A program made the position numbers and the translations under genes. The notes under the pieces are model-generated. The model saw only the letters and a list, made by a program, of their open reading frames with translations. It searched no databases and was not told where the DNA came from. Positions 6,749-48,704 of a DNA stretch of 64,000 nucleotides are shown here, piece by piece (positions within the stretch are counted from its first letter, which is position 1; every line of letters starts with the position of its first letter). Location: the NCBI RefSeq assembly GCF_001866075.3, contig NZ_CP063356.1, forward strand, positions 744,001-808,000. The letters run 5' to 3'. The DNA comes from Anaerobacillus isosaccharinicus (lineage in GTDB: Bacteria; Bacillota; Bacilli; Bacillales; Anaerobacillaceae).

Positions 6749-7735
6749 TTACAATAGATCTCTTCTCAGATCTTCGGCAGATTTTGGAGATAGATAACCG
6801 GGTGCAACATCAAAACAAGTTTTTGCACCCATTTGTCCTTCTTTATTTAGACGATAAGCTGCTCTTGCATATGCCACCAGGACACTAGCTGTAAATTCAG
6901 GGTTACTCTCTAAGTTAAGCGAGAATTCAATAATTTGTTTACTATCTCTCCCTGTTTTTCCACTTCGAATGACAAAGCCACCATGTGGTAATTTTGAATG
7001 GTTTTCTTTTAATTCTTCTGCTGTGATAAAGTTTACTTCTGTATCATAGTCAGCAAAGTAGTTAGGCATTGTTTTAATATCGTGTTCAATTTTCGCTTGG
7101 TCATATCCTTCTTCTGCAACCACATAACAAACACGTTGGTGTTTTTCAGCTGTAGATAATTCAGGATTTACTCCACTTTTGACCTTCTCTATCGCTTCAT
7201 CAATCGGCATTGTATACTGAACACCACCTGCTACACCCTCGACTCTACGAATAGCATCTGAATGCCCTTGGCTCAGTCCTTTTCCCCAGAAGGTGTAAGT
7301 TTCACCATATGGTAAAATTGCTTCAGCCATTAAACGATTCAGAGAGAATAAACCAGGATCCCAGCCAACAGCAATGATACTAGTTTTTCCATTTTCTTGG
7401 GCTGCTTGATTAACTACACTAAAATATTCAGGAATCTTTGCATGTGTATCATAACTATCGATCGTGTTAAACATTCTAGCAAAATATGGACCATGATCCG
7501 GAAGATCTGTTGCTGAACCTCCACATAAGATCATCACATCAATTTTGTCCTTATATTCTTCTGCACTCGAAATATGTAAAACCTCTACATTTGGCTCATT
7601 TATTGAAAGGTTTTCAGGTGCTCTTCTTGTAAAGATAGCCACAAGCTCCATATCTGGACACTGCTTGATTGCTTCAATCGTTCCTCTACCAAGATTACCA
7701 TAGCCTACAATTCCTACTTTTATTTGATTACTCAC
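6749..7735 (-). CDS. ddh: meso-Diaminopimelate D-dehydrogenase
   Basis: An NADPH enzyme that makes meso-diaminopimelate from tetrahydrodipicolinate and ammonia in one step, bypassing the acylated branch of lysine and cell-wall precursor synthesis. It has the Rossmann motif GYGNLG at residues 11-16, CGGSATDLPDHGP, FNTIDSYDTH, the WDPGLFS loop and the SQGHSDAIRR region typical of Ddh. The length of 328 residues fits the family. I choose GTG 7735, since TCTCCTCC on the plus strand (7741-7748) gives a near-perfect ribosome site GGAGGAGA 5 bases ahead; the longer frame from ATG 7780 adds 15 unlikely residues. A TATAAT at plus 7826-7821 could be the -10 box. It is monocistronic. The enzyme is found in only part of the Bacilli. 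Confidence 0.93.
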   Translation of the reverse strand: MSNQIKVGIVGYGNLGRGTIEAIKQCPDMELVAIFTRRAPENLSINEPNVEVLHISSAEEYKDKIDVMILCGGSATDLPDHGPYFARMFNTIDSYDTHAKIPEYFSVVNQAAQENGKTSIIAVGWDPGLFSLNRLMAEAILPYGETYTFWGKGLSQGHSDAIRRVEGVAGGVQYTMPIDEAIEKVKSGVNPELSTAEKHQRVCYVVAEEGYDQAKIEHDIKTMPNYFADYDTEVNFITAEELKENHSKLPHGGFVIRSGKTGRDSKQIIEFSLNLESNPEFTASVLVAYARAAYRLNKEGQMGAKTCFDVAPGYLSPKSAEDLRRDLL

Positions 7736-11057: not shown

Positions 11058-11233
11058 CTTTTAAAATGAGTTGCGCTACGCACTCCACATGTGTTTTGAT
11101 AGAATGTTGATACTGAAACGCGTATATTTTGATTTCGCGTAAAGGTGTACCCCCTAAATTAAAGGGGGTTATAGTTTATTTACATGTAATGTATTGAAAT
11201 CAAAACAAACTTCTGTACTATTTAGCATATGAA

Positions 11234-11359
11234 CTATTCTTTTACTTTTTTAACTATTACTGGTACTTCTTTTATTCCTACACACTTGGCAATAGTTAGT
11301 CTATGCTTTCCATTTCTGTAGACAGTCACTTTATTTCTTCTCGTTTGATCGCATTTTTT
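11234..11359 (-). pseudogene. 3' fragment of a ParB-like nuclease-domain gene
   Basis: About 41 codons ending at TAG 11234 read CDQTRRNKVTVYRNGKHRL then TIAKCVGIKEVPVIV. This matches the D/NGxHR..A...G...IPVIV core end of ParB-like N-terminal domains. A TGA stop interrupts the frame at 11360-11362, where the mobile structure begins. A second copy of the first part of this fragment, in inverted orientation, lies just before 19437. The 5' part of the gene is not in the window. Confidence 0.6.
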
Positions 11360-11423
11360 TCAAATTACACCAGAATAAACTATATACTCTCCCGAGATTA
11401 TGTGCTAAATTTTTTGCATATTA
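11316..11423. repeat. Left arm of the large palindrome, outer segment
   Basis: This segment is the inverted copy of 19330-19437, identical as far as I can align it by eye. At its outer end (CTGTAGACAGTCAC) the match stops exactly: here the sequence continues as the ParB-like gene, while at 19438 it continues as a serine recombinase. The inner end is interrupted by the IS at about 11425. Confidence 0.85.
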
Positions 11424-11424
11424 A

Positions 11425-13251
11425 GGTAGTGTCAAAAGTTCTATGAAAACTAAAGGCTGATGACACTTTCTACCAATTAAACTGGTGGTAGCTCCCGCCA
11501 TCGCTCTTGACAAACACGCCAATGGTTTAGCGAGAGGTTTAACAAGGGCGAAGAGGACAAAAGAAGGCATAGCTAAATAAGCCCTTGGTATTTCCATTTT
11601 AAACCATTGGCAAGTTCGGTTTGTCAAGAGTACGCTCCGCCGATGGCTAGAAAGGGCTCAGTTAAACAAAAGTTAGGCAGTTTGCTTACTTATCCAGTCC
11701 TGGGCAAGACCAATAAGAGTTGTCCATCTAGCTGGCATGTTTGGAAGCTTTTCTAGCTCAGGAAGTGTTACTGGTACTTTTCCTTCCAATGCTGAATGTG
11801 GTCTTAGAAAGTTAAAGTAAGCAACGAACAAGGTCACAAAAGAAACAGAACCATGTTCTGACCCGAAACCATGAGTGGATCGATAGTTTCCTTTAAAGGT
11901 ACGATTTAGCCGCTCGATAATTTGTTTGAGAGGTCGATATTCCTTTGATACCTCGTCTTCGTTGGTTAAGCCAATTACCTGAATCACCTCAAACGGGATT
12001 TGATGCTGGGCAAAAAAGTGTTGTGCTAATAAGTAAATGGGATTGCCATCGACAACGAAAGTTAGGTTTTCTGGGATTTTCCTAAGCTTTAACAACACTT
12101 CGTCTATCGCTTTAATAGCTGTAGCTGTGTCTCGGTTAGGTGACACAGGATAAGAGAGAATGACTTTCTTTACGGCATCAAAAAAGAAAAATAGGTAATG
12201 CCAACGGCCATTCACACGGATGTACGTTTCGTCACCGCAGAATTGATCTGAAAGCTCATAAGGATAGTGATCAATATACGGTTTCAACCACAAGGCCACA
12301 CTATTTTCGTAATTTAAAATGCTTTGACGAGAGATTGAAACACCATGTACGTCTTTCATCAGCGCTGCTGTTTTACGGGCTGAAAGTCCATAATTGACGT
12401 GATAAGTCAATATCAATCCAAGCGTATGTGGAGACACATAAATTCTTGATAGATCAACTCGTGGTCTCTTTGGTGAATGCTTCGCTAATGGTTGAAAATC
12501 AATGTGAAACTGGCGGTAAATATAGCGAAGTTTAAAGGCTTGAGGATCTTCTTTGAACCGATTTTTCTCTTTTTGAGTCATCGCATTACGTTTCTGTTGG
12601 TAATAAGAACAAGCGTCGTTTTTACACTTGTACACATGGAAGTCTTTTCTTTCCTTCACTTTTTCAAGTGTTTTTGAACAGTGAGGGCATTTCAGGATTG
12701 CTTCCTTGAGATATCGATTTCTCTCACTGAAAAGACATGAACACACCTTACATTGAAATTGTCCTTTCGCTCCATTGTTCGCATACAAATAATCAGATGG
12801 AGCACCACACGTAGGACATTTCATTGATGAAGGAACGGGTGTTGAATTCGACCGTCTTTGTACTGGTTTGAGAGGTTTACCTTTAGACTTAAGATGCTCG
12901 GTTAATAAAACTTGAAAATCTAGTTTTTTTGGAACTTCAATGATCGGTAGATCATCAACTTGAAGCTTGCGATATGGTTTATTAACTGGAGCCTCAGTCG
13001 GTTTATCAAACATGCTCTTCCCTATTAAAAGGGTAAGGAGCGTTCGAATTACTTGTTCTTGGTAGTTTATAAAAGTAAGTAAATAGGTTATAATTTGAGG
13101 TAACAACTTGTCACTTTCCTTTCTTTTGGGATGTTGGGTGTGTGGTAACCTCAATTATCTACAAAATTCAGGGGGTGGCAAGTTTTTTGCTTATAAAGCC
13201 CTTTAAACTAGGATTTAATAGCCTATTTCTATATAAAGTTTTGACAATACG
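11425..13251 (-). mobile_element. IS with IS240-type DDE transposase, inserted in the left palindrome arm
   Basis: Terminal inverted repeats are imperfect: GTAGTGTCAAAAGTT at the left end and, read inward on the other strand, GTATTGTCAAAACTT at the right end (13250 inward). Boundaries (within about 2 bases) were fixed by comparing the two palindrome arms. The intact right arm has 54 bases (19276-19329) where the left arm has this 1.83-kb IS, so insertion was accompanied by a 54-bp deletion. No target duplication is visible, as expected after such a deletion. Confidence 0.75.
11673..13154 (-). CDS. DDE transposase with N-terminal zinc ribbons (IS240/IS6-related)
   Basis: A 493-residue transposase. 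Two zinc ribbons lie in the first 190 residues (CPTCGAPSDYLY...CKVC and CPHCSKTLEKV...CKNDAC), then a helix-turn-helix (GLSARKTAALMKDVHGVSIS) and a DDE core: GDETYIRVNGRWHYLF, FVVDGNPIY and the acidic residue in KQIIERLNRTFKGNYR. The core resembles DDE_Tnp_IS240, but the zinc-ribbon front makes it longer than usual IS6 proteins. It looks complete and is the only gene of its IS. Confidence 0.82.
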   Translation of the reverse strand: MRLPHTQHPKRKESDKLLPQIITYLLTFINYQEQVIRTLLTLLIGKSMFDKPTEAPVNKPYRKLQVDDLPIIEVPKKLDFQVLLTEHLKSKGKPLKPVQRRSNSTPVPSSMKCPTCGAPSDYLYANNGAKGQFQCKVCSCLFSERNRYLKEAILKCPHCSKTLEKVKERKDFHVYKCKNDACSYYQQKRNAMTQKEKNRFKEDPQAFKLRYIYRQFHIDFQPLAKHSPKRPRVDLSRIYVSPHTLGLILTYHVNYGLSARKTAALMKDVHGVSISRQSILNYENSVALWLKPYIDHYPYELSDQFCGDETYIRVNGRWHYLFFFFDAVKKVILSYPVSPNRDTATAIKAIDEVLLKLRKIPENLTFVVDGNPIYLLAQHFFAQHQIPFEVIQVIGLTNEDEVSKEYRPLKQIIERLNRTFKGNYRSTHGFGSEHGSVSFVTLFVAYFNFLRPHSALEGKVPVTLPELEKLPNMPARWTTLIGLAQDWISKQTA

Positions 13252-13738
13252 GTATGAATTAAGAGGGAAAGAAAATGAATTCCCGATTATTGAGTTTTGT
13301 TCTGAGTGTAAGGGGCGGGGGAAACTATATCGTCATGGGTTTTATATGAGGTTTGGAATTACTGAAAAGGGGGCAATAAGTATTCCTATTTGTCGTTTGA
13401 AGTGCAAACACTGTAAAACTACATTTTCAATCATTCCTGACTTTCTCATCCCGCATTTCCAGCATACTTTACATACTATTGTTCAAGGAGTTGAACAACG
13501 TCTACTAAAAAAGAAAGCGTTCGATCGTCGTCAATTAGTAAATTTTCATTTCAAACGTTATGTAAGTATTCTTAAATGGGTTCATACTTATTTTTCTGAT
13601 TTGGATTATGCCCTTAGTTTCTCAGATGATCAAAAAAAAGAAGCCATAAAATATTTAAAAATGATCCAAGATTTTGGCGAATCCTCCTTCTTGCGAAGGA
13701 GCCAGGGTCATTTAAAGAAACACTTTATGGCACTTTAA
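13252..13738 (+). pseudogene. DUF6431 gene, 5' end replaced by IS sequence
   Basis: From codon YELRGKENEF on, this copy equals the intact gene at 18789-19313, but its first 12-13 codons and ribosome site were lost in the 54-bp deletion made by the neighbouring IS. The frame happens to stay open into the IS (to 13142), giving a chimeric start without a proper ribosome site. The protein has a zinc ribbon (CSECKGRG...CKHC) and is described under the intact copy. Confidence 0.75.
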
Positions 13739-13871
13739 TTTTAGCATATTTGGCGTTTAAAAAATATATTGAAGATTCCACATAACGTTTTCATTTTCTA
13801 TTTATGGCGAAAAAAGTAGAATAAAAGCATGGATGACCGGTCGTCCTTCTACTAAAAGGAGGAAGAAATCC

Positions 13872-14579
13872 ATGGAAGATAAAATACGTGAACAAATCGC
13901 TTTATTTCGTTATGGAATTATCGCCCCACTGCTAAATGGGCAAGTAGAACCGAAGGGATATTGGGTTGAAATAGAGGCAAAAAGTCATTCTATCCCATAC
14001 TATGGTGAGCGGAAAATCGCAGCTAAAACGGTTCAAGAATGGCTCCTTCATTATCGGAGATACGGCTTTGATGCACTAAAACCAAAGAAACGTTCGGACC
14101 AAGGTAATTCAAGAAGATTAACTCCAGAAGATCAAGATCATATTCTCGAACTACGAAAAAAATCTCTCCACATGCCCATTAGTGTCTTCTACGAACAACT
14201 GATTGAACAGGGAGAGATCTACAAAAATCAAGTTTCATATAGTACTATAAATCGTTTAATACGAAAAAACAAGCTAAATGGAAAAAATGTATCAACATCT
14301 CCTGAAAGAAGACGATTTGCCCATGCGAAAGTAAATACACTGTGGCAAGGGGATCTCTCTCACGGACCGTACGTTCAGAAGAAAAAGACATTCCTCATTG
14401 CTTATATTGACGACTGTTCGAGGCTAGTGCCCTATGCTCAATTTTTCTCTTCCGAGAAATTCGATGGAGTAAGAGTGGTGACGAAAGAAGCTTTGATAAG
14501 AAGAGGAAAGCCATCCATGATTTATGCCGACTATACCGAAAAAAATACTATGCCGAATAAACTTATAAATCCTTCATAA
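13872..14579 (+). pseudogene. DDE/rve transposase gene, 3'-truncated (left copy)
   Basis: It begins at ATG 13872 (MEDKIREQIALFRYG) with AAAGGAGG about 9 bases ahead. A helix-turn-helix front (KTVQEWLLHYRRYGFDALK) is followed by the first part of an rve/IS481-like DDE core: LWQGDLSHGP with the first Asp, then AYIDDCSR. After KPSMIYADY, where the second catalytic Asp would fall, the frame runs into the RIT end and stops, so the second half of the catalytic core is missing. The identical truncated gene lies inverted at 17948-18655. With its DUF6431 partner it formed a two-gene transposable element that the RIT element now interrupts. Confidence 0.8.
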
Positions 14580-14675
14580 ATAAACAGTTTACGAAGGATT
14601 TTCGGCATAGTGTTTTGCTATTTTTTCCATAATAGAAGTGGACTAACGTCCAAACTATTTTTAGGAGGAATTACT

Positions 14676-15908
14676 ATGGTAAAGAAACCAACTGTGGAAA
14701 GTAGTGTAAAAATGGTACTTGAAGCGCTTGAAAAAGCAGGTTATTGTCAATCAACGATTCATAGTTTCAAAAGGGTATATGAAAGACTGTTGAAGTCTGC
14801 CGCTATCATGGGGACAGAAACTTTAACTCAAGAATTGGTTGAGCATTTCGTGAATGATTCTGCAGACAGAAGGACAGGACAATACTGCCATTCACGTAAA
14901 AAGCTACACACTTCATGCATAAGAAAATTAAGGGAATATGAAGAAAGAGGCTATTTTGGCTGGCAACCAAGCAGGGATAGTAAGGTCGATAAGCCCTCAA
15001 CTATTAAATTCCAGGACCTTCATATCCATTTTCTAGCGTTTCTACAAGAGGAGAAAAAAAGTAAAAATACTATAGAATCGTATCGAAATACTTCCTGCAA
15101 GTTCCTTATTTTTATTGAAAAATTGGGCTATACCGAGTTGAAAGCTGTCCCTCTTAAATCAATCTATAAGTTTTTTGATGAACTAAGAGAAACCTGGGAC
15201 TCTGGAAGTCTTCGAACGGCGGCCTCCGGATTAAGATCATTTTTGCGTTTTGCAGAAGGTGGAAACAGACTTATTGCAGCCGTTCCTGATAAACTCCTGA
15301 GAAAAAGGACAATTATTCCCGTATTAACGGAGGAGGAAGAACGGGCTGTATGGGATGTATTACAAACCGATGCTGTATCTTCAAGGGACAAAGCTATTAT
15401 ATTATTATCGCTTCTTACTGGAATCAGGGCCGTGGATATTTTGAACTTAAGGTTAAAAGATATAGATTGGCAAGGGGATGTTATTAACATAGTCCAACAG
15501 AAGACGAATGAGCCTTTAGTTTTACCCCTTCTTCCTGCAATCGGCAATGCATTAGTAAGGTATCTCACGAATGACCGTCCTAAATCAGATTCATCGTGCG
15601 TATTTTTATCTCGAAATGCCCCACATGTACCGTTGAAAGAACATTCGAGTTGTTACACCATAGTAAGAAAAATATTTACATGTGCAGGAGTAAGAGTTAA
15701 CAACGAACTTAAAGGCACCCGCCTCCTTAGACATCATGTCGCCTCAAAAATGTTAAAAAATGGGGTTGCCATACAAACAATTTCATCAACACTTGGGCAT
15801 GTCAACCCAAACTCAGCCGACGTTTATCTGTCTACTGACGAAGAAAAGATGCGTGATTGTGCATTAACCTTAGCCGTCATTCCTATGAAAGTGAAGGGGC
15901 TCAAATGA
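14676..15908 (+). CDS. Tyrosine recombinase, first of the RIT trio
   Basis: A 410-residue site-specific recombinase starting at ATG 14676, with AGGAGG (14663-14668) 7 bases ahead. An N-terminal SAM-like DNA-binding part (about 20-200) is followed by the catalytic domain: Arg in LLTGIRAVDIL, Lys in QQKTNE, LLRHHVASKML, LGHVNPN and the tyrosine in SADVYLS. The box II position that is normally His-x-x-Arg reads Arg-Leu-Leu-Arg, so the first His is replaced. The stop overlaps the start of the next gene (ATGA). It probably acts only together with the other two recombinases at the element ends. Confidence 0.85.
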   Translation: MVKKPTVESSVKMVLEALEKAGYCQSTIHSFKRVYERLLKSAAIMGTETLTQELVEHFVNDSADRRTGQYCHSRKKLHTSCIRKLREYEERGYFGWQPSRDSKVDKPSTIKFQDLHIHFLAFLQEEKKSKNTIESYRNTSCKFLIFIEKLGYTELKAVPLKSIYKFFDELRETWDSGSLRTAASGLRSFLRFAEGGNRLIAAVPDKLLRKRTIIPVLTEEEERAVWDVLQTDAVSSRDKAIILLSLLTGIRAVDILNLRLKDIDWQGDVINIVQQKTNEPLVLPLLPAIGNALVRYLTNDRPKSDSSCVFLSRNAPHVPLKEHSSCYTIVRKIFTCAGVRVNNELKGTRLLRHHVASKMLKNGVAIQTISSTLGHVNPNSADVYLSTDEEKMRDCALTLAVIPMKVKGLK

Positions 15909-16876
15909 TGGAGAAGGCATATGTTAGTAAACTAGCTTCTTTCATGGAGTCTTTTGTAGCGTTTAAACACTCACTAGGCTGGAAGTATAAAACAAGCGAA
16001 TACTATCTCCACGAGTTTGATCGCTATTGTGCAAAACGCGAATCCGAAGAGGTTTTATTGAACGAGATTGTTAAAGGTTGGGTTATCTTACGGGATAACG
16101 AATGCCCAAACACCCAACGAGTACGTGTGGCACCTATTCGTGAGTTTGGCAAATACCTGCAACATTCTGGATACTCAGATGCATATGTTGTCACCAACAA
16201 AATCTGTCGAAAGCAAATCCGAACGATACCACATTTTTTCACAGATGAAGAAATTATCCGATTTTTCGATGCTTGCGACACACTAGGCCCTCGCAAGGAA
16301 AATCCTGTCCGCCATCTTGTCCTACCCATGTACTTTAGATTGCTTTATTGTTGTGGATTGAGAACAAGTGAAGCGCGGTTGCTTCTGCGAAAAAACGTTA
16401 ACCTTCATACTGGCTATATCGATGTAATCCATTCAAAAGGCCCTAAAGACCGAAGGTTGTTTCTTCCGGAAGACCTTAAACAACTATATTTGAAATACGA
16501 TGCTGTCATAGATAATATATTTCCAGATCGAACGTATTTCTTTCCGGTAAAATCCCATAGTTGTTACCAGAGTACGTCTATTGGATCGAATTTCAATAAG
16601 ATATGGAAGGCGGCTGGTTTGGGGCATGAGTCAGGCTCGAAGGCAAGAGCATATGATTTTCGCCATCATTTTGCCTTCGACAAACTCAATCAATGGCTTA
16701 AGGAAGAATCCGATGTGAATTCCATGCTTCCATATTTGGTGCGTTACATGGGACATGCCTGTTTGGAAAGCACCTACTACTATCTTCATCTTGTGCCTGA
16801 GTTTTTTTCTACTTTCTCCGAAAAAACTAAAATACTTGAAGGGTTGCTTCCGGAGGTGGATTATGATGAAGAGTAG
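15905..16876 (+). CDS. Tyrosine recombinase, second of the RIT trio
   Basis: A 323-residue protein starting at ATG 15905 inside the stop of the previous gene, with GAAGGGG 7-8 bases upstream. Catalytic marks are the Arg in CCGLRTSEARLL, Lys in HSKGPKDRR, then AYDFRHHFAF, YMGHACLES and the tyrosine in TYYYLHL. The first His of box II is Tyr here (Y-D-F-R). The gene overlaps the third recombinase by 14 bases. The three proteins are only distantly alike, as in known RIT trios, where each belongs to its own subfamily. Confidence 0.85.
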   Translation: MMEKAYVSKLASFMESFVAFKHSLGWKYKTSEYYLHEFDRYCAKRESEEVLLNEIVKGWVILRDNECPNTQRVRVAPIREFGKYLQHSGYSDAYVVTNKICRKQIRTIPHFFTDEEIIRFFDACDTLGPRKENPVRHLVLPMYFRLLYCCGLRTSEARLLLRKNVNLHTGYIDVIHSKGPKDRRLFLPEDLKQLYLKYDAVIDNIFPDRTYFFPVKSHSCYQSTSIGSNFNKIWKAAGLGHESGSKARAYDFRHHFAFDKLNQWLKEESDVNSMLPYLVRYMGHACLESTYYYLHLVPEFFSTFSEKTKILEGLLPEVDYDEE

Positions 16877-17906
16877 AAAGCAGATTGAGCCCGAATTTTG
16901 GCATTATGCTCGTAGCTTCCTTCATGTATACCTGCCCAAGGTAAGAAACCTTAGCCAAAACACAATAAATTCGTATAAGAAGTCCATGAGTTACTTTATT
17001 GATTACTTGGAAATCCAAAAAGGGATTGAACGACAGGACATTACGTTTGACTTTCTAAATAGGAAACACATTAAAGATTATTTTGTCTGGATGAATGAAG
17101 TGCAAAATCTAGCAGCCAAAACATGCAACCTTCGATTGACTGCACTAAAATCGTTCATGGAGTATTGCGCAGACGAGGATATTACGCTTGTTGCAATATA
17201 CAACGATGTTCGTAGCGTTCGCGGAATGAAGGAACACAAAAAGTCCATATTATATATGACAAATGAAGCTATTGAAGCATTATTAAAAACGCCTAAAACA
17301 GATACACAAAAGGGAAGACGCAATCGCATGATGTTCATTATGTTGTATGATACGGCTGCCAGAGCGCAGGAACTTGTAGATATTACCCTTCGGGATCTGC
17401 ACATTATCAACGTCAAAACACCTTTCGTTACGCTAACCGGTAAAGGCAACAAAAGTCGTAATGTGCCCCTGATGGAGAAAACTGTTGCTCACATCAAGCG
17501 TTATCTTCAGGAATTCCATCCGCATCCAAACACAGATGGCGGGGCTCCATTGTTCTATTCGATGAGGGATGGGAAGCCTCATGCCTTGTCTACGGATACG
17601 ATAAATCTCCTTTTAGGTCAATATGCAAACCAGGCAAGAATGATTTGTCCTGAAATCCCACGGCATGTTCACTGCCACTTAATCAGGAAAACAAGAGCTA
17701 TGACGTTATACCGAAAAGGTATGCCCCTCACAGTCATCATGGAAATGCTTGGTCATGAAAGTCTTTCAACAACATCAAACTTCTATGCTTTTGCAACGTT
17801 GGATATGATTCATGAAGCCATAAAGAAAACAAGCCCTGAGGCAGTGGAAGAATCCCCGCTTTGGAAAACCAAGGATATAAGAAAACTGATTTATAGTCTG
17901 GACTAA
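16863..17906 (+). CDS. Tyrosine recombinase, third of the RIT trio
   Basis: A 347-residue recombinase starting at ATG 16863 (or 16866), with GGAGGTG at 16852-16858. A SAM-like domain (about 10-110) precedes the catalytic domain: Arg in DTAARAQELVDI, Lys in TGKGNKSRNVPL, HCHLIRKTRA (intact His-x-x-Arg), MLGHESLSTT and Tyr in NFYAFATL. It alone of the three keeps every standard catalytic residue, so it may be the main cleaving enzyme. It ends 41 bases before the right-hand palindromic end of the element. Confidence 0.87.
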   Translation: MMKSRKQIEPEFWHYARSFLHVYLPKVRNLSQNTINSYKKSMSYFIDYLEIQKGIERQDITFDFLNRKHIKDYFVWMNEVQNLAAKTCNLRLTALKSFMEYCADEDITLVAIYNDVRSVRGMKEHKKSILYMTNEAIEALLKTPKTDTQKGRRNRMMFIMLYDTAARAQELVDITLRDLHIINVKTPFVTLTGKGNKSRNVPLMEKTVAHIKRYLQEFHPHPNTDGGAPLFYSMRDGKPHALSTDTINLLLGQYANQARMICPEIPRHVHCHLIRKTRAMTLYRKGMPLTVIMEMLGHESLSTTSNFYAFATLDMIHEAIKKTSPEAVEESPLWKTKDIRKLIYSLD

Positions 17907-17947
17907 AAGCTAAACACTATGCCGAAAATCCTTCGTAAACTGTTTAT

Positions 17948-18655
17948 TTATGAAGGATTTATAAGTTTATTCGGCATAGTATTTTTTTCGGTATAGTCGG
18001 CATAAATCATGGATGGCTTTCCTCTTCTTATCAAAGCTTCTTTCGTCACCACTCTTACTCCATCGAATTTCTCGGAAGAGAAAAATTGAGCATAGGGCAC
18101 TAGCCTCGAACAGTCGTCAATATAAGCAATGAGGAATGTCTTTTTCTTCTGAACGTACGGTCCGTGAGAGAGATCCCCTTGCCACAGTGTATTTACTTTC
18201 GCATGGGCAAATCGTCTTCTTTCAGGAGATGTTGATACATTTTTTCCATTTAGCTTGTTTTTTCGTATTAAACGATTTATAGTACTATATGAAACTTGAT
18301 TTTTGTAGATCTCTCCCTGTTCAATCAGTTGTTCGTAGAAGACACTAATGGGCATGTGGAGAGATTTTTTTCGTAGTTCGAGAATATGATCTTGATCTTC
18401 TGGAGTTAATCTTCTTGAATTACCTTGGTCCGAACGTTTCTTTGGTTTTAGTGCATCAAAGCCGTATCTCCGATAATGAAGGAGCCATTCTTGAACCGTT
18501 TTAGCTGCGATTTTCCGCTCACCATAGTATGGGATAGAATGACTTTTTGCCTCTATTTCAACCCAATATCCCTTCGGTTCTACTTGCCCATTTAGCAGTG
18601 GGGCGATAATTCCATAACGAAATAAAGCGATTTGTTCACGTATTTTATCTTCCAT
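17948..18655 (-). pseudogene. DDE/rve transposase gene, 3'-truncated (right copy)
   Basis: Identical in protein sequence to the copy at 13872-14579 and truncated at the same point (after KPSMIYADY) by the RIT end. The start is at 18655, with the same AAAGGAGG site. It lacks the second half of the DDE core and cannot be an active transposase. Confidence 0.8.
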
Positions 18656-18788
18656 GGATTTCTTCCTCCTTTTAGTAGAAGGACGACCGGTCATCCATGC
18701 TTTTATTCTACTTTTTTCGCCATAAATAGAAAATGAAAACGTTATGTGGAATCTTCAATATATTTTTTAAACGCCAAATATGCTAAAA

Positions 18789-19313
18789 TTAAAGTGCCAT
18801 AAAGTGTTTCTTTAAATGACCCTGGCTCCTTCGCAAGAAGGAGGATTCGCCAAAATCTTGGATCATTTTTAAATATTTTATGGCTTCTTTTTTTTGATCA
18901 TCTGAGAAACTAAGGGCATAATCCAAATCAGAAAAATAAGTATGAACCCATTTAAGAATACTTACATAACGTTTGAAATGAAAATTTACTAATTGACGAC
19001 GATCGAACGCTTTCTTTTTTAGTAGACGTTGTTCAACTCCTTGAACAATAGTATGTAAAGTATGCTGGAAATGCGGGATGAGAAAGTCAGGAATGATTGA
19101 AAATGTAGTTTTACAGTGTTTGCACTTCAAACGACAAATAGGAATACTTATTGCCCCCTTTTCAGTAATTCCAAACCTCATATAAAACCCATGACGATAT
19201 AGTTTCCCCCGCCCCTTACACTCAGAACAAAACTCAATAATCGGGAATTCATTTTCTTTCCCTCTTAATTCATACTCTTGTAATCCGATTCCAAAATCAT
19301 GAATAATGACCAT
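18789..19313 (-). CDS. DUF6431 zinc-ribbon protein of a transposable element
   Basis: The complete version (174 residues) of the gene that is beheaded in the left arm. GGGGGAG lies 6-7 bases ahead of ATG 19313. A zinc ribbon (CSECKGRGKLYRHG...CKHCKTTF) fills the first third, followed by a helical part with FLIPHFQHTLHTIV. I recognise this as DUF6431, a family seen beside rve-type transposases; it probably binds DNA for transposition. Its partner transposase downstream is truncated. Confidence 0.7.
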   Translation of the reverse strand: MVIIHDFGIGLQEYELRGKENEFPIIEFCSECKGRGKLYRHGFYMRFGITEKGAISIPICRLKCKHCKTTFSIIPDFLIPHFQHTLHTIVQGVEQRLLKKKAFDRRQLVNFHFKRYVSILKWVHTYFSDLDYALSFSDDQKKEAIKYLKMIQDFGESSFLRRSQGHLKKHFMAL

Positions 19314-19423
19314 AAAAAACTCCCCCTTTTAATATGCAAAAAATTTAGCACATAATCTCGGGAGAGTATATAGTTTATTCTGGTGTAATTTGAAAAAAAT
19401 GCGATCAAACGAGAAGAAATAAA

Positions 19424-20737
19424 GTGACTGTCTACAGTATTAAAGGGAAGTACGATATTATCTTATCTAAAGAACTTTCTAGACTTGCTAGGAATGTGCC
19501 ATTGGCATATAAAATTCGAGATATGGTAGAACGTTATGACCTTGAATTAATTACTCTTGATGGCGCAATCAACACAATTGAAAAGAAAGGTAATATGTTT
19601 GGTTTATATGCTTGGATCTACGAGTTAGAGGCTCAAAATACCAGCGAACGTTTAAAGCTAATGTTTAAAACAAAAGCTCAAATAGGAGAGTTTAATGGTT
19701 CACACCCACCGTATGGGTATGAGGTTATTAAAAAAAAACTTGTAATTCGAAAAGACCAAACTCCAAATGTTGTTCGGAGAATTTTTGAAGAGTATATAAG
19801 TGGCAAAGGTTTCGACGCAATAGCGAGAGGGCTATATAACGATGATGTTACAACTCCATCACAACTAGCTGAAAAGACTAATGCAACTACAAAATGGCAC
19901 GGATCGTCAGTTAGAAAAATACTTGAAAACCCTCACTATATGGGGATCCTTAAACAATGTCGAGATCATAAGCCAACTGTAACTAGCAAGAAAAGGAAAC
20001 ACAACTCTATATCTGATCAAGTCGTAATAGAAAATAGTCACGAACCCATAGTTCCTATTGAAGACTTTCTAGTAGTACAAGAACTTATAAAAAGTAGAAA
20101 GAGAACAAGGCCACAAAGTGAAAAATACTTATTTACGAATACTGCTTTTTGTAGTGACTGTGGTAGGGGTATGCACTTTAAAAAGAACAGAAAAGGTTAT
20201 ATTTGTGGGAACTACAATAAGCATGGAATTAAAGCTTGTAGTAACCATTATATTTCCCAAACCTCCCTTACTGATATTGTTTTAACCGACCTCAATAGAA
20301 TTTCTAACAAAATAAACAAGAATAATTACTACCAAAGTCTGATTAAAGAAATAACATTAAATAAAGAACAGATGCGAGAAATTCTTGAAACTAACATCAA
20401 TGAGTTAGAAGCAAAAAAAAGAGACAAAACCAATTTGGTCATTGCCCTCTCGAACGGAATTATTTCAAACGATGACTATCAATTAGCTATCAACTCCTTG
20501 AATGAAGTAATTACAAATATAGTGAACGAAAACAGGAAACTAAATAAAGAACTCGAACATCAAGATATCGAAAAAGACTTAAAAGAATTTAAGAAGAATT
20601 TGTCTTCTTTTACAGACTTACAAGTAGTTACTCCTGAATTACTTCACACTTTAATTGATAGAATAGAAATAAAAGCAGACGGAACAACTAAGATCCACTA
20701 TCGTTTTAATGAACCTACTGATCCACCTGCTTATTAA
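19424..20737 (+). pseudogene. Large serine recombinase lacking its catalytic front
   Basis: The frame joins 5 codons from the palindrome arm to the body of a large serine recombinase at 19438. Present are the end of the resolvase domain (YDIILSKELSRLARN, LITLDGAINT), the recombinase domain (GSHPPYGYE, PNVVRRIFEEYISG), the zinc ribbon CSDCGRGMHF...CGNYNKHGIKAC and a coiled coil (about 290-390). Missing is roughly the first 50-60 residues with the nucleophilic serine, so it cannot cut DNA. The 437 codons left stay open, which suggests recent damage. It may once have integrated the neighbouring defence island, or have been brought in with the rearrangement. Confidence 0.8.
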
Positions 20738-37179: not shown

Positions 37180-37357
37180 GTAAGCGTCAAATACTCCACA
37201 CCTTCTAATAATTACCGTGTTTTGTGATAATCACATTAACATCAATTGTTAGGAGGTTTTTTATGTCAGTAAGCGTCAAATACTCCACACCTTCTAATAA
37301 TTACCGTGTTTTGTGATAATCACATTAACATCAATTGTTAGGAGGTTTTTTATGTCA
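37180..37357. repeat. 89-bp tandem duplication at the left end of IS66 copy A
   Basis: 37180-37268 and 37269-37357 are the same 89 bases: the inverted repeat, leader, ribosome site AGGAGG and ATGTCA start of the first gene. Copy B has this unit once. Confidence 0.9.
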
Positions 37358-37675
37358 GTAGATGAACGTAAACAAATGTGGGAAGATCGCATCGACGCCT
37401 ACAGATCCAGTGGAGTGCCAAGTGTCAAAGCTTGGTGTGAACAAAATCAAGTAGGTGTTCAAAGTATGTATAGCTGGATGAAAAGATTGGAAACTGAGCC
37501 GACTCACGTCGCTTATCCTCTTACACAATGGGTTGCCATTGATTCATCCAACTCGATTGAAGAAACAGCTACTTTAACAGTTAAGGTAGGCGATGTTTCA
37601 ATCGAAATTAAAGAAGGCTTCAGCCATTCACTTTTAAATGAAGTACTTCAGGTTCTTCAATCCCATGTTAAGTAA
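37352..37675 (+). CDS. tnpA: IS66 accessory protein TnpA (copy A)
   Basis: A 107-residue helix-turn-helix protein (SVDERKQMWEDRIDAYRSS, VKAWCEQNQVGVQSMYSWMKR) of the type found first in three-gene IS66 elements. The start is at ATG 37352, with AGGAGG 6-7 bases upstream. The end overlaps tnpB by 11 bases. Identical to the copy-B gene. Confidence 0.87.
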   Translation: MSVDERKQMWEDRIDAYRSSGVPSVKAWCEQNQVGVQSMYSWMKRLETEPTHVAYPLTQWVAIDSSNSIEETATLTVKVGDVSIEIKEGFSHSLLNEVLQVLQSHVK

Positions 37676-38021
37676 AACACCTATTCAACGAGTCTATTTA
37701 GCGGCGGGTGCAACAGATCTGAGAAAGTCGATTGATGGTTTGGCAGCGATTGTTCAAATGAGTTTCCAATTGGATCCTTTCTCTTCCAATCTATTTGTGT
37801 TCTGTAATCGCAAACGAGATAAACTAAAGATCCTTCATTGGGATCATAATGGGTTTTGGTTATATTATCGCCGACTGGAAAAAGGCGTTTTTCAATGGCC
37901 AGATGAACAAACTACTAAGCCGCTATCGATCAGTCCTCGCCAATTCAACTGGCTCTTGGATGGACTTCCACTTGAACAAAAACAAGCCCATCCAAAAATG
38001 AGTGCAAAATTTATCATATAG
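37665..38021 (+). CDS. tnpB: IS66 accessory protein TnpB (copy A)
   Basis: A 118-residue IS66 Orf2 protein with the family pattern [49 protein letters not shown] and F.WP. The start is ATG 37665, inside the end of tnpA. It is needed for IS66 transposition together with TnpA, although its activity is unknown. Identical to the copy-B gene. Confidence 0.9.
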
Positions 38022-38068
38022 AGAGAATTGATCAACCACGACACCTCTCTATATGTTATTCTATTTAT

Positions 38069-39664
38069 ATGAGAAAAACGACGAATGAACTACTAGATAC
38101 AATTGAAGAACTCGCAGCGAAAAATGCGGATTTGGAAAAACAAAAAGAAGTCCTAGAGGCAAAAATCAAATGGTTGGAAGAGCAATTCCGACTAAGCCAA
38201 CAAAAGAAATTCGGGGCTTCGAGTGAAAAAACAAATCCGGATCAAATCGAACTTCCTCTTTTTAATGAAGCTGAAATCACAGCGGATGTAAAAATGGAAG
38301 AACCTACACTTGAAACGATTACTTATAATCGAAAGAAGCATGTAGGACAACGAGATGCGAAGCTTGAAAACTTGCCTACGGAAACGATCCATTATCGTTT
38401 ATCCGAAGAAGAGCAGGTCTGTTTGTGTTGCGGTGAAACTGTACATGAAATGAGTACGCAAACAAGACGTGAGCTAAAAATTATTCCTGCTCAAGTAACA
38501 GTCGTTGAACATGTTCGACATATATACAGTTGCCGTCAATGTGAACGCGAAGGAATAGAAACGCCGGTTGTCACAGCTAAAATGCCTGCGGCAGTCTTTC
38601 CAAAAAGTCTCGCTTCTCCTTCTGCAATGGCATATATCATGAATCAAAAATACGTAGAAGGAATGCCGTTGTACCGAATCGAAAAACAATTTGAACGGCT
38701 GGGTGTCTTTCTATCACGCCAAACGATTGCCAATTGGGTAATATATGGTGCAACAAAGTGGCTCTCACCGTTATACAATCGCCTGCATGAGTTACTGCTT
38801 CATCTTGACCGTCTGCACGCAGATGAAACAACCGTTCAAGTTTTAGCAGAACCTGATAAATTAGCAACTTCCAAATCCTATATGTGGTTGTATCGATCTG
38901 GTCGGGATGTTTCACCGATTGTCTTATATGACTATCAAACTTCTCGCCATAGTAAACACCCGAAAGCCTTTCTAAAAGGATTTGCGGGCTATCTTCATGT
39001 CGATGGTTATGCAGGTTACCATGATATGAAGGATGTGGAGTTAGTTGGCTGTTGGGCGCATTCACGCCGTAAATACGACGAAACGCTCAAATCTTTGCCT
39101 GCAAGTGTAGATAAATCTACGAGTCTCGCAGCTGAAGGTCTTCACTTCTGTACGCAATTATTTAAAATTGAAAAACAGATAGAAGAGGAATTTGAAAATT
39201 GTAGTCCTGAACAGCGAAAAGAAGAACGTCAAAAACGTAGTCAACCTGTGTTGGACGCTTATTTGGCATGGCTAAAATCCAAACGCCCTCAAGTTCCACC
39301 TAAAAGCAAATTAGGCGATGCCATAAATTATAGTTTAAACCAATGGTCAAAACTCATTGTCTTTATGAAAGACGGGCGACTTGAACTCGATAATAATAGA
39401 GCAGAACGTTCAATTAAACCATTCGTTATGGGAAGAAAAGCATGGTTGTTTGCCCAATCGATGAAAGGAGCAACCGCCAGTGCGGTCATCTACAGCATTG
39501 TCGAAACTGCCAAAGAGAATCAATTAAATCCATTAAATTATTTAACTTATCTTTTTGAACACTTACCACAAATAGACCTAGATGATCAGGAAGCACTTGA
39601 CCAATTCCTTCCGTGGTCAAAGTCCATTCCAAATGAATGCAGGATCCCTGCTAAACTTAAATAA
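38069..39664 (+). CDS. tnpC: IS66 transposase TnpC (copy A)
   Basis: The 531-residue DDE transposase. It has an N-terminal coiled coil and helix-turn-helix (about 10-60), a zinc-finger-like part with [11 protein letters not shown] and CRQCERE, the DDE core [20 protein letters not shown] and [16 protein letters not shown], and a C-terminal IS66 tail. Identical to the copy-B protein. It appears intact. Confidence 0.93.
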
Positions 39665-46308: not shown

Positions 46309-47904
46309 TTATTTAAGTTTAGCAGGGATCCTGCATTCATTTGGAATGGACTTTGACCACGGAAGGAATTGGTCAAGTGCTTCCTGATCATCTAGGTCTA
46401 TTTGTGGTAAGTGTTCAAAAAGATAAGTTAAATAATTTAATGGATTTAATTGATTCTCTTTGGCAGTTTCGACAATGCTGTAGATGACCGCACTGGCGGT
46501 TGCTCCTTTCATCGATTGGGCAAACAACCATGCTTTTCTTCCCATAACGAATGGTTTAATTGAACGTTCTGCTCTATTATTATCGAGTTCAAGTCGCCCG
46601 TCTTTCATAAAGACAATGAGTTTTGACCATTGGTTTAAACTATAATTTATGGCATCGCCTAATTTGCTTTTAGGTGGAACTTGAGGGCGTTTGGATTTTA
46701 GCCATGCCAAATAAGCGTCCAACACAGGTTGACTACGTTTTTGACGTTCTTCTTTTCGCTGTTCAGGACTACAATTTTCAAATTCCTCTTCTATCTGTTT
46801 TTCAATTTTAAATAATTGCGTACAGAAGTGAAGACCTTCAGCTGCGAGACTCGTAGATTTATCTACACTTGCAGGCAAAGATTTGAGCGTTTCGTCGTAT
46901 TTACGGCGTGAATGCGCCCAACAGCCAACTAACTCCACATCCTTCATATCATGGTAACCTGCATAACCATCGACATGAAGATAGCCCGCAAATCCTTTTA
47001 GAAAGGCTTTCGGGTGTTTACTATGGCGAGAAGTTTGATAGTCATATAAGACAATCGGTGAAACATCCCGACCAGATCGATACAACCACATATAGGATTT
47101 GGAAGTTGCTAATTTATCAGGTTCTGCTAAAACTTGAACGGTTGTTTCATCTGCGTGCAGACGGTCAAGATGAAGCAGTAACTCATGCAGGCGATTGTAT
47201 AACGGTGAGAGCCACTTTGTTGCACCATATATTACCCAATTGGCAATCGTTTGGCGTGATAGAAAGACACCCAGCCGTTCAAATTGTTTTTCGATTCGGT
47301 ACAACGGCATTCCTTCTACGTATTTTTGATTCATGATATATGCCATTGCAGAAGGAGAAGCGAGACTTTTTGGAAAGACTGCCGCAGGCATTTTAGCTGT
47401 GACAACCGGCGTTTCTATTCCTTCGCGTTCACATTGACGGCAACTGTATATATGTCGAACATGTTCAACGACTGTTACTTGAGCAGGAATAATTTTTAGC
47501 TCACGTCTTGTTTGCGTACTCATTTCATGTACAGTTTCACCGCAACACAAACAGACCTGCTCTTCTTCGGATAAACGATAATGGATCGTTTCCGTAGGCA
47601 AGTTTTCAAGCTTCGCATCTCGTTGTCCTACATGCTTCTTTCGATTATAAGTAATCGTTTCAAGTGTAGGTTCTTCCATTTTTACATCCGCTGTGATTTC
47701 AGCTTCATTAAAAAGAGGAAGTTCGATTTGATCCGGATTTGTTTTTTCACTCGAAGCCCCGAATTTCTTTTGTTGGCTTAGTCGGAATTGCTCTTCCAAC
47801 CATTTGATTTTTGCCTCTAGGACTTCTTTTTGTTTTTCCAAATCCGCATTTTTCGCTGCGAGTTCTTCAATTGTATCTAGTAGTTCATTCGTCGTTTTTC
47901 TCAT
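46309..47904 (-). CDS. tnpC: IS66 transposase TnpC (copy B)
   Basis: A 531-residue DDE transposase identical in sequence to copy A, with [20 protein letters not shown] and [13 protein letters not shown] as the catalytic core. It is intact. It can move its own element and probably also copy A, since both share their ends. Confidence 0.93.
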
Positions 47905-47951
47905 ATAAATAGAATAACATATAGAGAGGTGTCGTGGTTGATCAATTCTCT

Positions 47952-48308
47952 CTATATGATAAATTTTGCACTCATTTTTGGATGGGCTTGTTTTTGTTCA
48001 AGTGGAAGTCCATCCAAGAGCCAGTTGAATTGGCGAGGACTGATCGATAGCGGCTTAGTAGTTTGTTCATCTGGCCATTGAAAAACGCCTTTTTCCAGTC
48101 GGCGATAATATAACCAAAACCCATTATGATCCCAATGAAGGATCTTTAGTTTATCTCGTTTGCGATTACAGAACACAAATAGATTGGAAGAGAAAGGATC
48201 CAATTGGAAACTCATTTGAACAATCGCTGCCAAACCATCAATCGACTTTCTCAGATCTGTTGCACCCGCCGCTAAATAGACTCGTTGAATAGGTGTTTTA
48301 CTTAACAT
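47952..48308 (-). CDS. tnpB: IS66 accessory protein TnpB (copy B)
   Basis: A 118-residue IS66 Orf2 protein identical to copy A ([18 protein letters not shown]). The start at ATG 48308 overlaps tnpA by 11 bases. Confidence 0.9.
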
Positions 48309-48621
48309 GGGATTGAAGAACCTGAAGTACTTCATTTAAAAGTGAATGGCTGAAGCCTTCTTTAATTTCGATTGAAACATCGCCTACCTTAACTGTTAAA
48401 GTAGCTGTTTCTTCAATCGAGTTGGATGAATCAATGGCAACCCATTGTGTAAGAGGATAAGCGACGTGAGTCGGCTCAGTTTCCAATCTTTTCATCCAGC
48501 TATACATACTTTGAACACCTACTTGATTTTGTTCACACCAAGCTTTGACACTTGGCACTCCACTGGATCTGTAGGCGTCGATGCGATCTTCCCACATTTG
48601 TTTACGTTCATCTACTGACAT
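48298..48621 (-). CDS. tnpA: IS66 accessory protein TnpA (copy B)
   Basis: A 107-residue helix-turn-helix protein identical to the copy-A protein. ATG 48621 follows AGGAGG. This copy has the leader once, whereas copy A has it twice. Confidence 0.87.
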   Translation of the reverse strand: MSVDERKQMWEDRIDAYRSSGVPSVKAWCEQNQVGVQSMYSWMKRLETEPTHVAYPLTQWVAIDSSNSIEETATLTVKVGDVSIEIKEGFSHSLLNEVLQVLQSHVK

Positions 48622-48704
48622 AAAAAACCTCCTAACAATTGATGTTAATGTGATTATCACAAAACACGGTAATTATTAGAAGGTGTGGAGTATTTGACGC
48701 TTAC

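Follow-up and report, generated by a model that had tools for sequence, protein, structure and literature searches.

Mirrored transposon halves around a RIT element in Anaerobacillus isosaccharinicus and their probable origin by fusion of two insertions

The RIT element and its inverted arms

The window analysed here, a stretch of 64,000 nucleotides (C1:744001-808000) from the 5.23-Mb single-contig genome of Anaerobacillus isosaccharinicus, contains a RIT element, a trio of recombinase genes, placed between two inverted copies of the same transposon half (Table 1). The trio comprises three neighbouring tyrosine recombinase genes that overlap and share one strand, each matching PF00589, within a core of about 3.5 kb (3464 bp) that ends in 84-bp terminal inverted repeats. 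No RIT profile appeared among the NCBIfam and Pfam matches listed for the three proteins. Relatives of the second one (RitB) were found by tblastn in Cupriavidus pHG1, where RITs have been described (PMC2864759). The original prediction had placed the element at 14547-17980; the RIT-like trio stood, with the three PF00589 open reading frames (ORFs), but the core extends from 14532 to 17995.

The inverted arms around the trio, also predicted, were borne out by a base-by-base comparison. The inner arms (13252-14622 and 17905-19275) are complementary over 1371 nt with two mismatches (14616 and 14620), both within the RIT; 84 bp of each arm correspond to the perfect terminal repeat, and the transposon portion, 1280 nt on each side, is 100% identical between left and right. 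Farther out, a second pair of 109 nt has no mismatches. Chance can be ruled out given the length and identity of the arms. The proposed pairing of positions, L + R = 32527, holds for the inner arms and not for the outer ones, whose sum is 30753 because the left arm carries an insertion sequence of 1827 bp that replaces 53 bp retained only on the right. Both flanks are the 5′ half of the target, as had been noted, and a simple insertion is unable to give such flanks.

The target, named T1 here, consists of a DUF6431 gene and an IS481-like DDE transposase gene, the latter scoring under the NCBIfam cut-off, albeit as an interrupted gene. The RIT interrupts this transposase at the Asp codon of a YADNG motif, which we take to encode a catalytic residue as in other DDE enzymes. 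In the uninterrupted copy L014 (own genome 3162952-3166015, also L035), T1 continues into the remainder of the transposase and a P-loop protein (P-loop read by eye). Both arms of the window stop at the left end of T1 as defined by L014; the 6-mers adjoining the arm ends differ (CATTTC on the left, TAATAC on the right), and the sequences outside the arms are two different truncated sequences unrelated to each other. Moreover, perfect host duplications were present in uninterrupted relatives, in six of six copies of transposon 2 (6 bp), another target described below, and in four of four of the T1′ family (7 bp). From these boundaries, the differing 6-mers and the perfect duplications of the relatives, the arms are most simply explained as two separate transposon insertions and not as one copied locus. 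The right arm matches the 5′ half of L014 at 100% identity (1442 nt) and that of another T1 copy, L006, at 99.86% (1441 nt); as T1 copies elsewhere are equally alike, the identity of the arms is no mark of a fresh duplication.

Table 1. Features of the RIT element of the window, its arms and its flanks (positions of the window)
Feature	Position	Strand	Remarks
X flank	11230..11315	-	26-residue open frame and stop running out of the T1 end, tail of a truncated gene; read from the sequence
Left T1 5′ half, outer 109 bp with natural left end	11316..11424	+	Reverse complement of 19329-19437; end as in L014
IS6-like insertion sequence	11425..13251	-	ORF 11673-13154; replaces 53 bp kept on the right
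Left T1 5′ half, remainder	13252..14531	+	DUF6431 protein and first part of the IS481-like DDE transposase, cut at the Asp codon of YADNG
Fingerprint TGCCGA, left	14525-14530	+	6 bp in the left T1 half
RIT core	14532..17995	+	3464 bp, identical in six genome copies
Left terminal repeat	14532..14615	+	84 bp, perfect
First tyrosine recombinase ORF (RitA position)	14610..15908	+	432 aa; PF00589 1.2e-25
Second tyrosine recombinase ORF (RitB position)	15857..16876	+	339 aa; PF00589 1.5e-13
Third tyrosine recombinase ORF (RitC position)	16755..17906	+	383 aa; PF00589 1.3e-26
Right terminal repeat	17912..17995	-	84 bp, perfect
Right T1 5′ half, uninterrupted	17996..19437	-	100% identical to the L014 5′ half over 1442 nt
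Fingerprint TGCCGA, right	17997-18002	-	6 bp in the right T1 half
Z flank, serine recombinase	19424..20737	+	Outside T1 from 19438; first part of the Resolvase domain missing

RIT copies in the genome and the palindrome rule

Six identical RIT cores of 3464 bp each were found in the genome, in both orientations relative to their targets. Three of them (L004, L005 and L006) present the order 5′ half-RIT-palindrome-3′ half and are ordinary insertions, the palindrome at their junctions being ATTATGACGAATTCGTCATAAT, with variable outer letters. The transposons holding them are flanked by 6-bp duplications: GGATTG for L004 (a pair chosen by eye, no second copy of this transposon having been found), GTGTTA for L005 and GTACCT for L006. 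L002 has the same order, but its duplications do not match (AACCAAC and TTATATT). The remaining two copies are rearranged: L003 lies between 3′ halves of two different transposons, T1 and transposon 2, with a palindrome on each side, and the window copy lies between two 5′ halves with no palindrome at all. A search of the whole genome for the palindrome, allowing one mismatch, gave six places, all of them at RIT junctions. Since the palindrome occurs at either end of the RIT, the element was inserted in both orientations.

A second RIT family was observed in the same genome (L007-L010, near 584, 1688, 3651 and 3695 kb), which interrupts istB-like genes at what was judged by eye to be the P-loop. 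Here, a palindrome of the sequence TTATGGAAAGCTTTCCATAA is found next to one end, and both orientations occur as well. Furthermore, L006 forms part of a nested set (2456-2474 kb), in which T1 with its RIT and the GTACCT 6-bp duplication is bordered on both sides by recombinase ORFs resembling a third trio of the RIT type.

Mirrors in other genomes

The search of other genomes for RIT elements with mirror-image flanks, suggested with the original prediction, yielded two. One is a draft contig of 7467 bp from a member of the Bacillota (L172), in which the 5′ half of an istB-like gene, cut after GAVGTG, appears on both sides of the RIT with no palindrome. Its left arm ends at the contig end, and the far contig end shares 127 bp with four other contigs. 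No other contig of this draft matches the RIT ends, so no junction with a palindrome is evidenced in it. The other is a plasmid of Arthrobacter sp. U41 labelled complete (NZ_CP015733, L186), where the 3′ half of an IS3 element lies on both sides together with two palindromes TTAAGCCGAATTCGGCTTAA. The left arm contains another IS3, and the arms end at 7510, which is the end of the best IS3 matches (query 357-361 of 551; six best records besides itself). The same plasmid holds a second RIT, which is ordinary, has one palindrome and differs at one of 3426 positions.

Thus, mirrored half-targets occur in three genomes and are a recurrent outcome. The palindrome belongs to the 3′ junction, and all four mirrors fit this rule: none in the window copy or in L172, and two each in L003 and L186.

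Six-base fingerprints and a suggested order of moves

Six variable bases lie between the RIT end and the 5′ half, and also on each side of the palindrome. On the 5′ side, they are the natural 6 bp of the target in five of five junctions that could be compared; the 3′ side has foreign bases in three of five and is uninformative in the other two, L004 being without an uninterrupted relative for comparison. In particular, the CTGTGA found in L006, which is inserted in T1, corresponds to the natural 6 bp of transposon 2, the target of L005. A 6-bp spacer rule has been reported for SE and Tn554, by which the 6 bp of the target stay at one junction and those of the circle go to the other (PMC10214605), and the RIT junctions display this same footprint and fingerprint pattern.

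Under this rule, one of the copies can be assigned as parent to four of the six palindrome junctions (L004 for L005, L005 for L006, L004 for the left side of L003 and L002 for its right side), while those of L002 and L004 have none. At least four parented junctions were obtained in 0.65% and 1.05% of cases by two types of shuffling; the figures depend on hand-read six-base labels and on a rule whose fitting was done with the same data in view. An insertion order L004, L005, L006 and an SE/Tn554-like circle would agree with these fingerprints, which are suggestive, not proof. Past movement of the RIT seems to be implied by the six identical copies in different targets together with this order. 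If the order is right, the donors would have stayed in place after their offspring arose, in keeping with movement by copy-out or with a RIT excised from a sister chromosome.

Origin of the mirror

The preferred explanation is that two T1 transposons were fused through the RIT, giving the mirror of the window (probability roughly 0.68). The RIT would target a fixed codon within transposon genes and enter it in either orientation, giving 5′half-RIT-palindrome-3′half, and two T1 insertions at different places would later be joined through it. A crossover between RIT copies oppositely oriented relative to their targets would convert X-5′half-RIT-palindrome-3′half ... 3′half-palindrome-RIT-5′half-Z into X-5′half-RIT-5′half-Z, the partners being lost simultaneously or later. 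Either RecA, acting at the identical 3.46-kb cores, or a Rit-catalysed exchange at the end sites might have done this. The six identical cores in both orientations supply substrates for such a fusion. Regarding the transposon halves, four 5′ and three 3′ halves of T1 were counted, and seven 5′ and eight 3′ halves of transposon 2 (partly among the best 40 of 47 and the best 40 of 64 candidates), from which at least one T1 3′ half and one transposon-2 5′ half seem to be gone.

Several observations weigh against a fusion. The ancestral site was not found in six genomes of the same genus, which matched only elsewhere in the query, and the unmatched halves include no fitting pair. L014, which defines the T1 end, has itself no matching host duplication and a different right end; this sole uninterrupted T1 found has a right end resembling the T1′ family and looks like a recombinant. 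Furthermore, the sequences adjoining the two palindromes of L186 agree between left and right, as copying would also give. With neither a fitting pair of halves nor an ancestral site, we infer the event itself, and likewise its proceeding by crossover, a deletion in place of an inversion, the loss of the 3′ halves at that moment and the enzyme responsible.

The explanation put forward in the original prediction, a mirror duplication of a single target through template switching or sister-strand joining, appears very improbable despite the identity of the arms over 1280 + 109 nt and the symmetry of the bases around the palindromes of L186. Copying would carry the flank along or stop at a random point, so that copying of one locus is unsupported: in the window and in L186, the arms end at transposon ends amid unrelated flanks. 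Moreover, L003 unites two distinct transposons, an outcome that mirror copying is unable to produce, and T1 copies elsewhere are no less alike than the two arms. An assembly error, in which the identical 3.46-kb cores were traversed wrongly and the flanks of the window copy and L003 were swapped, is unlikely, if less so. The genome has one 5′/5′ and one 3′/3′ junction and as many palindromes as RITs, as a swap predicts, and the junctions are known from the assembly alone; however, un-swapping the window copy, L003 and L002 in any way restores no matching duplication and leaves a T1 half joined with a transposon-2 half, and two more mirrors exist in unrelated assemblies, one of them the plasmid record labelled complete.

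A one-step mirror made by Rit proteins from a single RIT is a possible, clearly weaker alternative to the fusion of two insertions. The inner core site would recombine with a second intact T1; this site, composed of the RIT end, 6 bp and the palindrome, has the form of the circle joint, and the products would be 5′half-RIT-5′half and palindrome-3′half ... 3′half, the latter lost. The inner site has the same form as the outer one, both new 5′ junctions hold the natural 6 bp of T1 as integration would leave them, L172 is a mirror with one RIT region in its draft, and three of the six copies of the genome could be ordered into a recent series of moves. On the other hand, the 3′/3′ mirrors L003 and L186 require a second step or two RIT copies, and the predicted 3′half-palindrome-3′half product devoid of a RIT is absent, all six palindromes found with one mismatch allowed being at RIT junctions. 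It is conceivable, with some doubt, that RITs travel in circular form, joined by 6 bp-palindrome-6 bp, their equivalent ends making both sides of the palindrome live integration sites, so that an inserted RIT might capture a second target. RITs would then turn transposons inside out (5′/5′ and 3′/3′) and serve to fuse and delete other mobile elements in a site-specific manner.

Two further candidates were rejected. A reciprocal inversion between the window copy and L003, considered first for their complementary numbers of palindromes and halves, leaves the host duplications unpaired, and the halves are T1/T1 in one and T1/transposon 2 in the other. The skew of six stretches sampled at 780-1160 kb was negative like that of the neighbours in four and near zero in two (+0.004 and +0.024), without a sign of inversion, which is weak evidence. 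A mirrored unit moving by its two left ends was discarded since CATTTC and GTATTA, the + strand 6-mers at its flanks, are not the same.

Survey of RIT elements in other genomes

RIT elements were surveyed in 28 RitB-bearing stretches from an order and a phylum sample and in 14 plasmid stretches out of 21 records. With at most five candidates scored per genome, the order sample gave one genome with RitB at E ≤ 1e-60 among 396 besides that of the window, and the phylum sample 22 at E ≤ 1e-45 among 397; at E ≤ 1e-70, RitB was not found in the six genomes of the same genus. Palindromes of 20 bp were counted if at least 9 of their 10 pairs matched and they lay close to the outer edge of the terminal repeat, the threshold being set after the scores had been seen. 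Under this strict threshold, 22 of 29 elements outside the genome had the palindrome on exactly one side and none on both. In the order and phylum set (17 of the 28 stretches plus L030), the figures were 14 of 18 and none, with L160, L170, L171 and L176 below the criterion and L157 having only 15 bp on one side; in a second scored set (nine plasmid stretches plus L167 and L168), they were 8 of 11 and none, with L185, L192 and L196 below it. In L195, the palindrome straddles the repeat edge. If the threshold were relaxed to 8 of 10, L168 and L169 would score on both sides. A score of 9 was reached by 31 of 5200 random stretches. Not all scored elements are independent, as L150/L151, L166/L169 and L170/L171 share genomes.

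Besides the mirror L172, the 28 stretches comprise 17 and a further two (L167 and L168) with scores and eight (L136, L152, L154, L155, L159, L161, L173 and L174) that remained unscored, with no repeat pair or a contig end too near; with one readable side only, L155 showed a palindrome-like stretch and L136 a palindrome. The plasmid set is made up of nine scored stretches, the mirror L186 and four (L187, L190, L191 and L193) that lacked a convincing repeat pair; L029 was also left unscored. A scan of named genomes for the exact palindrome returned five places: two adjoin RIT genes (L029 and L030), and one (L028), within a phosphoglycerate-mutase-like gene, is probably due to chance. At position 5501 of L032 (Terrihalobacillus insolitus), the palindrome and a RIT-like end of 14-15 bp lie between DDE transposon halves without RIT genes, perhaps the scar of a lost RIT. 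At position 7809 of L031 (a metagenome-assembled genome of Thermincola ferriacetica), the palindrome is next to HSDRG-like codons of an IS3 transposase, with no RIT genes in the stretch, and chance is possible.

Many RITs of the survey (L150, L156, L157, L160, L166 and others) were seen by eye to cut conserved motifs of other mobile genes, including DDE codons, the P-loop, the RHTFATRL stretch of tyrosine recombinases and a reverse-transcriptase-like motif. On plasmid pR1CP1 of Rhodococcus opacus 1CP (L188), one recombinase gene lies ahead of the trio and two others come after it on the opposite strand, an arrangement like that of a RIT nested in another RIT.

Relation to known systems

The founding papers on RITs are said to be those of Van Houdt (2009) and Ricker (2013). 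In a literature search of limited scope, without these founding papers, no mention was found, in the text available, of mirror flanks around RITs, of a tie between palindrome number and flank type, or of traced fingerprints. These three points did not appear in the papers covered, and it is in this limited sense that they are new here. Three adjacent tyrosine recombinase ORFs in about 3.5 kb, terminal inverted repeats, a position inside transposase genes and identical copies within one genome are shared with known RITs, for which a location within transposase genes, a size of about 3.5 kb and some end variation have been described (PMC3414803; PMC2864759). Mention is also made of an inverted repeat of 28-9 bp and of a palindromic sequence overlapping it (PMC3414803). 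In contrast, a palindrome at one junction only, traced 6-bp fingerprints and mirrored half-targets are absent from the available parts of these descriptions (PMC3414803; PMC2864759; PMC10214605).

Like SE and Tn554, the RITs of this genome follow the 6-bp spacer rule, but they have three recombinases and equivalent ends with the palindrome between them, whereas SE ends are distinct and the gene sets of SE and Tn554 are different (PMC10214605). The RIT core holds three tyrosine recombinase ORFs and no fourth gene, differing from the SE set intA-tfp-intB-srap; therefore, the RIT is not a member of SE and resembles it in the 6-bp rule only.

Recombination between copies of an insertion sequence yields fusions and deletions. 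The proposed event is alike in that two insertions become one and the intervening DNA is lost, but here the shared repeat, the RIT, is nested inside the transposons being fused, so the half-transposons end up mirrored. Inverted flanks around an element need not imply mirror copying.

In a 2023 paper, the movement and target specificity of RITs are listed as untested, and no RIT transposition reproduced in the laboratory is known to its authors (PMC10214605). The copies described here may be taken as a readable record of RIT activity, with targets at fixed codons, a one-sided palindrome, 6-bp fingerprints and the likely order of three insertions. They yield concrete predictions for testing RIT movement at the bench, and a simple sequence rule for locating RIT ends and rearranged copies.

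Other features of the window

The truncated gene of the X flank presumably resembles ParB-type proteins, and the Resolvase match of the Z flank begins at position 61 of the 145 of the profile. The IS6-like insertion in the left arm matches NF033587 with 71 bits, under the cut-off of 125, and has at least 30 matches in the genome among those listed, 28 of them full length (best 40 of 65 candidates). Moreover, ORFs of 120, 127, 531 and 142 aa at 37313-39664 of the window recur on the opposite strand and in mirrored order at 46309-48660, and these two segments look, from the ORF sizes only, like two inverted copies of one insertion sequence.

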